Assembly: GCA_016218415.1 (NCBI GenBank)
Contig: JACRED010000042.1
Span: 1-64,000 of the forward strand
Direction of reading: 5' to 3'
DNA length: 64,000 nucleotides
DNA from: Nitrosomonadales bacterium
GTDB taxonomy: Bacteria; Pseudomonadota; Gammaproteobacteria; Burkholderiales; Gallionellaceae
Part shown: piece by piece, positions 46,085 through 52,122 of the stretch
Layout of the letters: every line of letters starts with the position of its first letter
Numbering within the stretch: the first letter of the stretch is position 1
Translations under genes and position numbers: made by a program
The notes under the pieces: generated by a model
Database searches by the model: none
What the model saw: the letters and a program-made list of their open reading frames with translations, nothing else
What the model was told of the DNA's origin: nothing

Positions 46085-47167
46085 TTAGGAAAATAGCCTG
46101 CGCGCCTGCGCGCTGCCGGGCGCAATCCCGCGTGCGCGCATTTTTTCTTCGACCTCGGCGATGCGCTCGCGGATGCGCGCCAGGCCGGCTTCGTTGAGCT
46201 CTACGCGATGATCGTCCACCAGATTGACCTGCAAGCTCCTGGCGAGCCCGTGCGCGACATGCATCAACTTGTCGAAATGTTGCGTTGGATCTTCCACGCG
46301 CGGCACATCCAGCAGCAGCGTGACGCCCTTCGTGCCGAAGGTTTCCAGCAGGTGATGCTGGAACGGCTGGGCATCCCGGTTGCTCAGGCTGAACAGGCTG
46401 TGCCCCTGCGCATCCAGCAGATGGAACGCGCCGTCCGATTCCAGCGTCATGCCCAGCAGCGCGGCGGATTGCGCGATCTTGGCGCCCATCAGCAGGCGCT
46501 CGCCGGGCGGCACCAGATTGACCCCGACCATCTGGTCCACGCTGGCGCAGAACGCATCCAGCTCGACCGCGTGATGGTGGATTTCGTCTACAGCCGGGAC
46601 AGTGGCATCCGCCCTGATGTGCTTAGCGATGCCGGCGAGCAGATCGCGGAAATCCGCCAGCTTCGCCGCGCTGATCGCGCCGCCCCGGTCCGCCAGTTGC
46701 AGCGCGACGCGGAAGCGGTCGTACAGCGCCGGGCTTTCGGCGATCACGCGCTCCCACTTTGCGGAAGCCGGCTGCCCGGCCAATGTTAGCCCGCACACCT
46801 GCACCGGTTTGCCGAAATCAAATTTGCGCTGCCACAGCCCGTCCAGCACGGACGCCGGGCTGGCCTCGTTCAGGTGCAGCTCGATGATGAAATCGCTGCG
46901 CCCATCCAGCAACGAGCACGACTCGTCCGGCAACGGGGCGGCGGCATCGGCTGGCGGAACGGCTTCGCCGGTCTCATCTTCGACGCTAGCCGCTGTTGCA
47001 TGGCGCTGGCCGGCAGCGGCGGTCTGATAACGCGTGTCCGGACGCACGGTCTGGAATGCCTCGCCGAATTTGCGCCGATATTGTCTTTGCTGCCACCAGC
47101 CAAAAGCGTACAGCGCAACGATCACGACTATGCCGATGATCAGCAAAGCAGTCTGTAATTCACTCAC
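46085..47167 (-). CDS. zipA: Cell division protein ZipA-like
   Basis: N-terminal TM MSELQTALLIIGIVVIVALYAFGWWQQRQYRRKFGEAF, C-terminal ZipA-like domain, position after ligA. Confidence 0.85.
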   Translation of the reverse strand: MSELQTALLIIGIVVIVALYAFGWWQQRQYRRKFGEAFQTVRPDTRYQTAAAGQRHATAASVEDETGEAVPPADAAAPLPDESCSLLDGRSDFIIELHLNEASPASVLDGLWQRKFDFGKPVQVCGLTLAGQPASAKWERVIAESPALYDRFRVALQLADRGGAISAAKLADFRDLLAGIAKHIRADATVPAVDEIHHHAVELDAFCASVDQMVGVNLVPPGERLLMGAKIAQSAALLGMTLESDGAFHLLDAQGHSLFSLSNRDAQPFQHHLLETFGTKGVTLLLDVPRVEDPTQHFDKLMHVAHGLARSLQVNLVDDHRVELNEAGLARIRERIAEVEEKMRARGIAPGSAQARRLFS

Positions 47168-47220: not shown

Positions 47221-50085
47221 TCATGCCGGCGGGCGTTTCAGATTCCGTCCCGACACCATCAGCTTCCTGAATTCATCCGCCGGCAGCGGTTTGCTGAAGT
47301 AATAACCCTGCATCTCGTCGCAATCGAGTTCTTCCAGGAAGCGCAATTGTTCCGTGGTCTCCACGCCTTCGGCGATCACATTCAGGCTGAGGCTCTGTGC
47401 CATGCCGATCACCGCCTTGACGATTGCCGCGTCATCGTTGTCCACGGACAGGTCGCGCACGAAGGACTGGTCGATCTTGAGCACGTCGATCGGAAATTTC
47501 TTCAGGTGCGCAAGGCTGGAATAACCGGTCCCGAAATCGTCGATGGAGATTCTTGCGCCCAGTTCATGCATGCTTTGCAGCATGGCGGTGGTTTTTTCGG
47601 GGTTCGCCATCATCGCCGATTCGGTGATCTCGAATTCGAGCGCGCTGCCCGGCAGGCCGTTGCGGGTCAGCGCCGCAAAGATAACCCACATCAGGTCCCG
47701 CGCCAGAAATTGCAGCGGCGACAGGTTGACCGCCATCACGATATCGCGCAATCCCATTTCCCGCCATTCACGGGTCTGGCGGCATGCCTCGTTGATCACC
47801 CATTCCCCCAGCGGCACGATCATGCCGGTTTCTTCGGCGATAGGAATGAAGTCGGCCGGCGAGATCAATCCGTCATCCGGATGCTGCCAGCGCACCAGCG
47901 CCTCGACCGCGACGATCTCCCCGCTGCGCAAATCAACCTTGGGCTGGTAATGCAGCAGCAACTCGTTGTTCTTCAGCGCGTTGCGCAGCATGTTTTCCAG
48001 TCTGACGCGCTTGGCGATGGAGTTGTTCATTTCCTGGGTGAAGAAGCGGTAACGGTTGCGTCCGGCATCCTTGGCCTGGTACATCGCGGTGTCGGCGTTT
48101 CTGAGCAGCGTTTCGCTGTCGTGGCCATCCTGCGGATAGATGCTCACTCCCACGCTGGTGGTCACATGCATCGTATATCCCGCCAGTTCATATGGCGTGG
48201 CGACGTTCTCTATCAGCTTGTTGACGACCTGCACGATGTCGCCCAGGTCGTCCAGATTGGGCAGCATGATCACAAATTCGTCGCCGCCCTGGCGGCTGAC
48301 GGTATCGCTGCTGCGCACGCACTGCAGGATGCGCTGCGCCACTTCCTGCAACAGCAGGTCGCCGACATGATGGCCCAGCGTGTCGTTGACGTTCTTGAAT
48401 CGGTCCAGATCCATGAACAATAACGCCACCTTGGTCTGCTGTCGCCCGGCGTAGGTGATTGCCTGCTGCACGCGGTCCTGGAACACCATCCGGTTCGGCA
48501 GGCCGGTCAGCACATCGTGCTGGGCCAGGTAGGCCATGCGTTCCTCGGCCGCCTTGCGCTCGCTGATGTCCGACATCAGCGCGATATAGTGTGTCAGCTT
48601 GCCGGCGCTGTCGCGCAACGTGCTGATACTCAGCCATTCCGCATAGATCTCGCCATCCTTGCGCCGGTCCACCACCTCGCCCTGCCACTTGCCGTCGGTC
48701 TTGAGCGCCAGCCACATGTTCCGGTAAAAATCCTCGTCCATCAGCCCCGAGGCGAAGATGCGCGGATTTTTGCCTATCGCTTCTTCCGGGGTATAGCCGG
48801 TCACTTCGGTAAACGCGGGATTGACGGCCAGGATGTTGTTGTTCGCGTCGCTGATCAGGATGGCTTCGTTGGCATTGGCGAATACCTTTTCGAACAGGTG
48901 TATCTGCTCTTCGGCAAGCTTGCGGGCGGTGATGTCGATCTGTTCGGACAGAAAATGGGTGATGCCGCCCCGGTCGTCCAGTATCGGACTGATGCAGAGC
49001 TCCTCCCAATACAGCCTGCCGTGCTTGCTCCTGTTCAGCAGCTCGCCGCGCCATACCCGCCCCGACTTGATCGTGTTCCATAATGCTTCATAAACCTCCC
49101 TGGGCGTCTGTCCCGACTGGTGTACGCGCATGCTCTTCCCGATCACTTCTTCCGCCGCATATTCCGTGACCTTGCAGAAATGCGGGTTCACGTATTCGAT
49201 GATGCCGTCGGCGTCGGTGATGATGATGCTGTTCGGGCTTTGCTCCACGGCCAGCGAAAGTTTGCGGATCTGCGCGGAGGATTGCGCCATCTTGCGCACC
49301 ATGCCGTCGAACGCCAGGCCGAGCCGTCCTATCTCGTCCGGTCCGCCTATCCGGGTCAGGACATTCAGGTTGCCCTCGCCCACATGCTCTGCGGCATGCA
49401 GCAATCTCACCACGCGGCGCGTCAGGGTCCAGTGCAGCAGCAGGCCGATCAGCAGCGCCAGACTGGTGAAACTGATCAGCAGGCGCTGCATCTGCGCCCT
49501 GACATACAGGCGATGCGCGGCCAGCGGGGCGGTGACATCGGTGTATATGAGCAGCTTGCCGATCTTGTAGTGGCCCAATGCGGCGCCCGGCGCATCCAGG
49601 CGCACCGGTGCGGCGACCAGAATCGCGTTGCGTTCCCGGTAAACGGTTTGCTGGATGGTCATTTTGGCGGCGTTCGCCGTCGGGAGCGCTTCCAGCCAGG
49701 GCTGTGCGGAAAATTGCTGGGCCGCCTGCATCAGGTTCGACCCTGTCAATGACAGGCGGCTCGATGCGATGACCCGGTCCTGCTCGTCCGCCAGCAGCGC
49801 CACCAGCACTTCCGGCCTCAGGCTGAGTTCGGAAAAACTCTGTTGCAGCCGTTCCGTGAATCCCATGCGCATATCGCGTTCGAGGTTGGCCTGCAGGCGT
49901 TCGGCCATTTCCATCTGCTTGGCCCGGTATTCGCTGTAGACTTCGTCGTCCTCGTGCTGGATCTGCTGCCCGAACACATAAACCAGCATCAGCAGCACGA
50001 TCAGCACGATCAACAGCGGGATCAGCACGCGCAGCGAGAGGACTTTCTGGCTGATCTGGCCGGAAATGTGGCGCTGTTCAGTCAA
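47221..50085 (-). CDS. Periplasmic sensor-HAMP-PAS-PAS-GGDEF-EAL protein
   Basis: TM-periplasmic-TM-HAMP N-terminus, QGGDEFVIMLP, VEALVRWQHP, DDFGTGYSSLAHLK. Confidence 0.93.
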   Translation of the reverse strand: MTEQRHISGQISQKVLSLRVLIPLLIVLIVLLMLVYVFGQQIQHEDDEVYSEYRAKQMEMAERLQANLERDMRMGFTERLQQSFSELSLRPEVLVALLADEQDRVIASSRLSLTGSNLMQAAQQFSAQPWLEALPTANAAKMTIQQTVYRERNAILVAAPVRLDAPGAALGHYKIGKLLIYTDVTAPLAAHRLYVRAQMQRLLISFTSLALLIGLLLHWTLTRRVVRLLHAAEHVGEGNLNVLTRIGGPDEIGRLGLAFDGMVRKMAQSSAQIRKLSLAVEQSPNSIIITDADGIIEYVNPHFCKVTEYAAEEVIGKSMRVHQSGQTPREVYEALWNTIKSGRVWRGELLNRSKHGRLYWEELCISPILDDRGGITHFLSEQIDITARKLAEEQIHLFEKVFANANEAILISDANNNILAVNPAFTEVTGYTPEEAIGKNPRIFASGLMDEDFYRNMWLALKTDGKWQGEVVDRRKDGEIYAEWLSISTLRDSAGKLTHYIALMSDISERKAAEERMAYLAQHDVLTGLPNRMVFQDRVQQAITYAGRQQTKVALLFMDLDRFKNVNDTLGHHVGDLLLQEVAQRILQCVRSSDTVSRQGGDEFVIMLPNLDDLGDIVQVVNKLIENVATPYELAGYTMHVTTSVGVSIYPQDGHDSETLLRNADTAMYQAKDAGRNRYRFFTQEMNNSIAKRVRLENMLRNALKNNELLLHYQPKVDLRSGEIVAVEALVRWQHPDDGLISPADFIPIAEETGMIVPLGEWVINEACRQTREWREMGLRDIVMAVNLSPLQFLARDLMWVIFAALTRNGLPGSALEFEITESAMMANPEKTTAMLQSMHELGARISIDDFGTGYSSLAHLKKFPIDVLKIDQSFVRDLSVDNDDAAIVKAVIGMAQSLSLNVIAEGVETTEQLRFLEELDCDEMQGYYFSKPLPADEFRKLMVSGRNLKRPPA

Positions 50086-51052
50086 GTCTGCTCCCTTCGA
50101 TCAGGCGCGGATTGATCAATTGCGACAGGTCATCGCTGCCGGTGGTCAGCCCGTTCTCTTTCAGGATGCGTTGAATCTCATTGCCCGTTGCCAGCAGCGG
50201 GGGAGGGTTGCCGGCAAGCTGCTGGAGGTTTTTTTGTTTGTCGAGCAGGGTCAGGCCGTTCATTGTCGCAGCGATCTCCGCCACCGATGCCTGTTCGCGC
50301 TTGGCGATGATAGGGTAGGTGCGCACCTGGTCGCGCTGGATCACGCTCAGGGCGCGAAACCAGGCGCGGATGAATTCATGCAATTGGCTCTGGTGTGCCT
50401 TGGCATCCGCCGCGCGCACCACCAGCGTATCCACGATCTTGCCCGGGATCAGGGTGCTGTCGAACAGCACCTCGGCGCCCTCGCGCCGCAAATCGCCGGC
50501 TGCCAGCCCGAAGGTGACAACCGCATCCACTGCGCCCGTGCGGAAAGCCTGCACCTGCTCATCCAGCGGCAGCGAGATGATTTTGATGTCCCGGCCGGAA
50601 AGCTGCGCCTCGTGCAATATCAGGCTCAGGAAATAGGCGCCTAGCGCGGTCTTTTCCACGCCGATGCGCTTGCCCTTGAGCTGGCCCAGGTTCTTGATGC
50701 TGCGCCGCGCCATCAGCATGTCCGCGCCGTTGGAAAAGTCGGTCACCAGGAACACCTGCAGATCGGGGATGTCGTGCCGCAGTTCCAGCGCTTCGTCCAG
50801 CGTCAACCCGGCGATGTTCAATTGCCCGTTGCGGAAGGCGCGCAGCACTTCGGTGGTGTTGGTGAATTCGGCCAGGTGAACCCGGTCTCCTTTCAGATAG
50901 CCCAGTTCGCGCGCGACGTATGCGGGTTCGTATCCCGGCCAGATCACCGCGCCGAACACCAGAGGTTCGACGTACTGGTCTTCACATGCTGCCAGCGTCA
51001 GCAACAGGAATAAACAACAGAATTTTTTCACCGCGTGTGCCTTGCATGACAT
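50078..51052 (-). CDS. NMT1/SsuA/TauA-type substrate-binding lipoprotein
   Basis: Lipobox LLLLTLAACEDQ; IWPGYEPAYVARELGYLKGDRVHLAEFTNTTEVLRAFRNGQLNIAGLTLDEAL; stop overlaps the GGDEF-EAL start by 8 nt. Confidence 0.85.
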   Translation of the reverse strand: MSCKAHAVKKFCCLFLLLTLAACEDQYVEPLVFGAVIWPGYEPAYVARELGYLKGDRVHLAEFTNTTEVLRAFRNGQLNIAGLTLDEALELRHDIPDLQVFLVTDFSNGADMLMARRSIKNLGQLKGKRIGVEKTALGAYFLSLILHEAQLSGRDIKIISLPLDEQVQAFRTGAVDAVVTFGLAAGDLRREGAEVLFDSTLIPGKIVDTLVVRAADAKAHQSQLHEFIRAWFRALSVIQRDQVRTYPIIAKREQASVAEIAATMNGLTLLDKQKNLQQLAGNPPPLLATGNEIQRILKENGLTTGSDDLSQLINPRLIEGSRLD

Positions 51053-51072: not shown

Positions 51073-52122
51073 TCAGGCCAGCGGCAATTCCGCGTTGCTC
51101 ATTCCGATCGCGGAAACCTCGTCCAGCGCCCTGAGGAAATGATGCTGCTCGCGCAACTGCGCCAGCGATTCCGCATGGGATTTGCCGCGCATCTGGGCGA
51201 GGCGGGCGCGGCTGGTGGCGGGCATTTCCCAGTGCAGTCCCCGCAGCAATTCGTCCGCTGATTCCGGCTTGTTGCACACCAGCACCATATCGCACCCGGC
51301 GTGCAGCGCGGCTTCGGCGCGCTGCACGATGCCGCCCGCGACGGTCGCGCCTTCCATGCTCAGGTCGTCGCTGAAGATGCAGCCCTCGAAACCCAGTTGC
51401 CCGCGCAGGATGTTCTTCAGCCAGACCGGCGAGAATCCCGCCGGACGGCTGTCCACCTTCGGATAGATCACATGCGCCGGCATCACTGCGGTCAGGCCGT
51501 AATCCACCATCTGCCGGAACGGGATCAGGTCCGCCATCTCGATGTCGACGAACTCGCGTTCGTCCACCGGGATGTCCAGATGCGAATCGGCCCGCACATA
51601 GCCGTGGCCGGGGAAGTGTTTGCCTACGGCGGGCATTCCGCCCAGTTTGAGTCCGATCAGCAGGCTGTGCGCCAGCTCGGCAATCGCCTGCGGGTCGCTG
51701 TGGAAGGCGCGGTCGCCGATCACGCTGCTCTGCCCGTAATCCATATCCAGCACCGGTGTGAAGCTGAAGTCCACGCCGCAGGCGCGCAGTTCGGCGGCCA
51801 GCACATAGCCCGCCTGCTGCGCCAGATGACGCGCGCGCTGCGGGTGCGCGTCCCATATTTTGCCGAGTTCGCGCATCGGGGGGATCCTGGTGAAGCCGTC
51901 GCGGAAGCGTTGCACCCGTCCGCCCTCGTGGTCCACCGCGATCAGCAGCGGCGGGGTATGCAGCGCGTGGATCGCGGCGGTGAGTTCGGCCAGCTGGCCG
52001 GGCGATTCGTAATTGCGCTTGAACAGGATCACCCCGCCGACCAGCGGATGGCGCAGCCGCGCTTCATCTTCGGTGGTCAGTGTCGTTCCTGCTACATCCA
52101 GCATTACGGGGCCTAGTCCCAT
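51073..52122 (-). CDS. nagZ: Beta-N-acetylhexosaminidase
   Basis: [52 protein letters not shown]. Confidence 0.95.

Follow-up and report, generated by a model that had tools for sequence, protein, structure and literature searches.

A gene for a solute-binding lipoprotein of the NMT1/SsuA type and a gene for a transmembrane HAMP-PAS-PAS-GGDEF-EAL enzyme overlap in the 64,000-nt stretch of DNA analysed here (the window), and their products very probably form a two-gene extracellular sensor, in which a solute-binding protein (SBP) would feed a receptor that sets c-di-GMP output. In the proposed mechanism, the lipid-anchored SBP, no longer part of a transporter, would bind a small molecule in the periplasm. 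In its closed (or open) form, it would dock on the Cache-like ectodomain of the receptor encoded next to it, which sits in the inner membrane. Through the HAMP and PAS domains of the receptor, the signal would reach the GGDEF-EAL part and tip it towards c-di-GMP synthesis or breakdown. By analogy with NspS–MbaA, how far the enzyme makes or breaks c-di-GMP would depend on whether the lipoprotein is occupied by its ligand. What we infer in this scheme is the physical contact, which way the switch goes and what the ligand is. The pair belongs to a large and, it seems, undescribed family of sensor pairs, as no description of an SBP–receptor family of the NMT1 type was found in open-access papers. 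A “fetcher” protein of the nutrient-pump kind is here paired directly with the kind of enzyme that controls biofilm and motility decisions, and the family lends itself to testing: its SBP is encoded by a gene of its own, its outputs are interchangeable, and it offers a class of ligands to start from.

Architecture of the lipoprotein–enzyme pair

Table 1. Features of the gene pair in window coordinates.
Feature	Position	Strand	Basis
HAMP-PAS-PAS-GGDEF-EAL transmembrane enzyme, 954 aa	47221..50085	-	ORF and Pfam
EAL domain, catalytic motifs apparently intact	47287..47994	-	Pfam and motif reading
GGDEF domain, RxxD I-site and GGDEF motif	48052..48525	-	Pfam and motif reading
Two PAS domains, ~residues 284-387 and 397-516	48538..49236	-	Profile matches
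HAMP domain, residues 216-265	49291..49440	-	PF00672, 39.7 bits
Second transmembrane stretch, ~residues 199-217	49435..49491	-	Kyte-Doolittle scan
Periplasmic ectodomain, ~residues 40-203, predicted long helix and single-Cache/PDC-like sheet	49477..49968	-	AlphaFold, Foldseek
First transmembrane stretch, ~residues 11-44	49954..50055	-	Kyte-Doolittle scan
8-nt overlap TTGACTGA	50078..50085	-	Enzyme TTG start and lipoprotein TGA stop
NMT1/SsuA-type solute-binding lipoprotein, 324 aa	50078..51052	-	PF09084 match and profile scores
Lipobox L-A-A-C	50984..50995	-	Sequence; C23 predicted lipid-anchored residue, +2 residue Glu

The stop/start overlap of 8 nt reported in the initial annotation is present in the sequence: the lipoprotein stop TGA occupies 50078-50080 and the enzyme start TTG 50083-50085, with GAAGGGAG upstream of the latter. 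Among 120 relatives, four genomes carry SBPs of ~61-70% identity that precede the same receptor with the same overlap. The junction TTGACTGA is identical in these four orthologous loci (L036-L039) although the binding proteins have diverged this far, arguing that the overlap has been retained and did not arise by chance. From the overlap we infer that translation of the lipoprotein and the enzyme is probably coupled. A chance overlap was dropped, the junction being identical in five loci, and so was a pseudogene or sequencing artefact, as both frames are open, the motifs look intact and orthologues exist.

The lipoprotein starts at the ATG at 51052, with a GTG at 51031 as alternative start. 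It passes the Pfam cut-offs of NMT1 (PF09084; 45.5 bits, cut-off 20.5) and NMT1_2 (42.7 bits, cut-off 24.7), and its Pfam matches, NMT1, NMT1_2 and Phosphonate-bd, do not include any polyamine SBP family, to which kind the PotD/PotF-type protein of NspS–MbaA belongs. Together with the lipobox, these scores agree with the earlier description of an NMT1/TauA-type binding lipoprotein. Its scores stay under the curated cut-offs of TIGR01728 (aliphatic sulfonate SBP SsuA; 90.3 bits, cut-off 163.5), TIGR03427 (putative urea/guanidine SBP; 83.2 bits, cut-off 333.9) and the taurine binding protein model. A structure model of the SBP, with a mean pLDDT of 64, is too uncertain for pocket geometry, and the residue arguments below were therefore confined to alignments.

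All domains of the enzyme (HAMP, two PAS, GGDEF and EAL) score above the Pfam cut-offs, in agreement with the HAMP-PAS-GGDEF-EAL order first read, its PAS part comprising two domains. The I-site plus GGDEF stretch reads RSSDTVSRQGGDEF, and the EAL domain carries the signature EALVRW and the motifs DDFGTGYSS, FEITE, KIDQSF and EGVE; on this reading of the translation, both active sites look intact, as had been claimed. The orthologous enzyme in L037 (3147-6005) is interrupted, one frame encoding HAMP-PAS and another GGDEF-EAL, either because the gene is truly broken or because the assembly is wrong.

The two transmembrane segments enclose a periplasmic domain, as described before, but at ~160 aa it is of moderate size and not large. 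The AlphaFold model of this ectodomain (mean pLDDT 64.8; ~70-82 over most of residues 30-120) consists of a long helix and a PAS-like sheet, and its best PDB matches in Foldseek are the WalK ectodomain, the TlpQ dCache domain and DctB. Cache sequence matches are all sub-threshold (dCache_1, 17.2 bits, cut-off 45), and Pfam gives no confident family name for the ectodomain. With moderate confidence, the model points to a Cache-like fold.

The pair lies between zipA (46085-47167) and a nagZ-like GH3 gene (51073-52122), with no adjoining ABC genes, as first noted, and the orthologues stay beside the nagZ-like gene. By the orthologous pair in three genomes, integron integrases adjoin the nagZ-like gene (L036:4904-5419, L037:8110-9144 and L039:216-1196; TIGR02249, 482-493 bits in L037 and L039, a short frame in L036); the window has acpS- and pdxJ-like genes at this position instead.

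Distribution, phylogeny and co-divergence of the pairs

A contig scan with short peptides turned up no more than three relatives, and whole-genome searches were therefore used. Conservation of the gene pair, proposed as a check in the initial annotation, extends beyond the four orthologous loci in searches across the class and the phylum. In the wider set, obtained by a class-wide profile search and the reading of 60 neighbourhoods, a receptor-type gene lies immediately downstream of the SBP gene at 67 measured loci, and a phylum-wide search yielded 20 further loci, each with the SBP gene followed by a receptor of the histidine kinase or GGDEF kind. SBPs at ~30-38% identity still precede a receptor, be it a GGDEF-EAL protein with a short ectodomain, a histidine kinase or a receptor with a PhnD-like ectodomain, and the output module of the pairs varies among GGDEF-EAL, GGDEF and histidine kinase. 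An annotated plasmid pair occurs in Niveispirillum (WP_158660217.1/WP_102115244.1). With start codons taken mechanically as the first possible, the gap between SBP and receptor genes is exactly -4 nt in 29/67 loci, and an overlap of 1-40 nt is seen in 50/67. A few loci are exceptions: L145 has no receptor on the strand of its SBP gene, and a convergent gene 1.7 kb off encodes a two-TM kinase of the usual architecture, while L136 has no receptor and an SBP frame containing a stop. In L184, two related SBP genes stand in tandem ahead of the kinase gene.

Because sensor-linked SBPs went into the search profile, its score and the class of a protein are not independent, and a tree is the fairer test. 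A quick tree was built from 109 SBPs. A single clade (SH-aLRT 97) unites 73 of its rows, none of which has an ABC or EamA-like neighbour directly downstream, and transporter-linked rows lie outside it. The likelihood rises when all 76 non-transporter rows are constrained to group together (p-AU 0.79), which favours, without proving, a single origin of the sensor role. Outputs switch many times within the sensor clade, the GGDEF-EAL label alone needing 14 changes. PhnD-type ectodomains gather in one subclade of the SBP tree (L044, L048, L051, L127, L130, L150, L154, L160-L163, L167 and L035), in which an SBP lipoprotein is paired with a receptor that is itself of SBP type.

Distances among the SBPs follow those among the short ectodomains (Mantel r 0.73, 0/5000 permutations), also in 27 spread representatives (r 0.58, 0/5000 permutations). 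In histidine kinase pairs, the SBP–ectodomain correlation is 0.72 versus 0.15 for the SBP and the output domain, and in GGDEF pairs the values are 0.67 versus 0.55. This co-divergence agrees with the two proteins being partners on the periplasmic side.

The membrane anchor likewise sets the sensor-linked SBPs apart: a lipobox is found in 63/69 of them, 0/16 ABC-linked SBPs and 2/15 others. Four of the six misses show, on inspection, a Cys with a near-consensus box, and the lipobox Cys is present in 66/66 aligned sensor-clade SBPs. The sensor SBPs thus appear membrane-tethered, as expected of a dedicated receptor subunit. At +2 after this Cys, Ser, Gly, Thr, Ala and Glu predominate, and Asp occurs only three times; the sorting rule of E. 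coli would send many of these SBPs to the outer membrane, opposite the receptor.

Candidate ligand and alternative readings

Guanidine-I riboswitches are found in the loci of transporter-linked (ABC or EamA-like) sister clades in ten sampled cases (L057, L059, L063, L067, L073, L075, L078, L173, L178 and L181), and a named ABC example adjoins urea carboxylase genes; operons for the uptake and breakdown of guanidine are known to be controlled by riboswitches of this kind (PMC12186494). W38, D105, S107, G109 and D111 are common to the sensor clade and the riboswitch-linked transporter SBPs in the alignment; NrtA of this genome has none of these residues, and TauA and SsuA are without D105 and S107 in HMMER alignments. 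Going by the general SBP fold, the five residues probably line the cleft. However, the Guanidine-I riboswitch is absent from the window genome and from the four genomes with orthologues, and no sensor gene under such a riboswitch was found in 19 sensor loci or the window. Across 121 relatives, riboswitch and sensor co-occur marginally (5/21 versus 8/100, Fisher p 0.049, relatedness uncorrected). Weighing the sister-clade riboswitches and shared residues against the riboswitch-free orthologue genomes, we take guanidinium, or a similar small cation rich in nitrogen, as the leading but weak guess for the ligand. If it is guanidinium-like, the pair would be an outside sensor for a compound of open physiological role (PMC12186494). 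Doubtful is the broader picture of a clade of extracellular guanidinium-like-cation sensors that arose once from guanidine-importer SBPs, became lipid-anchored and, in several Pseudomonadota classes, were connected to histidine kinases as well as c-di-GMP enzymes; such a clade would be the outside counterpart to intracellular guanidine riboswitches.

Rather likely, the same sensor pair reads a ligand unrelated to guanidine, such as a sulfonate, a thiamine precursor, a muropeptide, a polyamine or another amine, which would alter the ligand part of the scheme only. The NMT1/SsuA families bind many ligands, and position 87, Glu in the sensors, is Asp or Gln in the transporters; given this difference and position 41 (Tyr or Trp), the ligand may have changed between transporter and sensor SBPs. 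The missing riboswitches and the constant nagZ-like neighbour of the orthologues point the same way, whereas D105, S107, D111 and W38 in the Guanidine-I-controlled sister transporters speak for guanidine.

It is unlikely that the SBP is a ligand-free accessory co-regulator, as YycH/YycI are for WalK, with the Cache-like or PAS domains sensing the signal. Cache domains commonly bind ligands themselves, PAS domains such as the two present here can sense redox or gases, and the modelled ectodomain resembles that of WalK; yet W38, T84, E87, D105, S107, D111 and D208, putative cleft residues, are conserved in nearly all sensor-clade SBPs, which argues that ligand binding has been kept.

Least likely, the SBP would serve a distant or promiscuous ABC importer (e.g., NrtBD), its place beside the enzyme being incidental or only co-regulatory: ABC importers are the usual partners of SBPs with this fold, an NrtB permease is encoded in the genome, and the assembly (2.5 Mb, 86% complete) could miss the cognate transporter, but no transporter stands beside any orthologue, clade SBPs are followed by receptors and not permeases in dozens of genomes, many of them nearly complete, and the ABC-linked relatives differ in the lipobox. 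A cognate permease or ATPase elsewhere in this 86%-complete genome, which the initial annotation had named as counting against a sensor if shown to use this binding protein, was looked for and not found. Among nine PF00528 permease matches, a single one is of the NrtB/TauC type, and its locus has its own adjoining NMT1_2 protein, permease and ATPase; the other loci look, from their sequences, like polyamine, phosphate, peptide and sugar importers. The one other PF09084 match in the genome is a PhnD-like protein. The SBP of a nitrate importer was dropped as a candidate, since the genome has its own NrtA.

Comparison with known systems

Outside the sensor clade, the closest relatives of the SBP are guanidine importer SBPs (TIGR03427/TIGR01728 neighbourhood), with which the conserved residues are held in common. 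Their genes lie near urea/guanidine carboxylase or agmatinase-family genes, followed by an ABC permease/ATPase or EamA-like transporter, many with a Guanidine-I riboswitch, whereas the sensor clade is without these; the ABC-linked importer SBPs, in turn, are without a lipobox.

In LuxP–LuxQ, a ribose-binding-like SBP is read by a PDC/Cache-type receptor ectodomain, an arrangement that the present pair would share, as related pairs share the histidine kinase output; LuxQ, however, lacks a GGDEF-EAL part, and its PDC domain is double. DctP–DctB and AioX–AioS likewise consist of an SBP that activates a membrane kinase, yet these SBPs belong to other families and DctP still serves a transporter. 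The same holds for BctC–BctE, including the continued service of BctC to a transporter (PMC9602780).

A review of c-di-GMP sensing from 2022 points out that GGDEF/EAL proteins frequently carry SBP-clan domains, with SBP_bac_3 as the only one studied by then (PMC8846402). The nearest parallel is NspS–MbaA of Vibrio cholerae and Sinorhizobium meliloti, in which a non-transporter SBP gene overlaps the gene of a two-TM HAMP-GGDEF-EAL receptor, by 16 bp in V. cholerae and 3 bp in S. meliloti (PMC9993111, PMC8967002). Norspermidine-bound NspS docks and favours the cyclase, free MbaA being a phosphodiesterase (PMC8967002); there the SBP sets the c-di-GMP balance of the receptor. The same architecture of overlap, SBP and two-TM HAMP-GGDEF-EAL receptor is found here, and at this level it supports the earlier proposal of an NspS–MbaA-like sensor built on a different SBP family. 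The two systems differ in their parts: NspS is a PotD/PotF-type SBP and the lipoprotein is of the NMT1/SsuA type; the periplasmic part of MbaA spans residues 24-256 in S. meliloti, as against a shorter, probably Cache-like domain; for the cytoplasmic part of MbaA, only HAMP, cyclase and phosphodiesterase domains are listed (PMC9993111), as against two additional PAS domains here; and outputs in the present family include histidine kinases. By analogy, the best reading is that the pair would work like NspS–MbaA or LuxP–LuxQ while not being a member of the NspS family.
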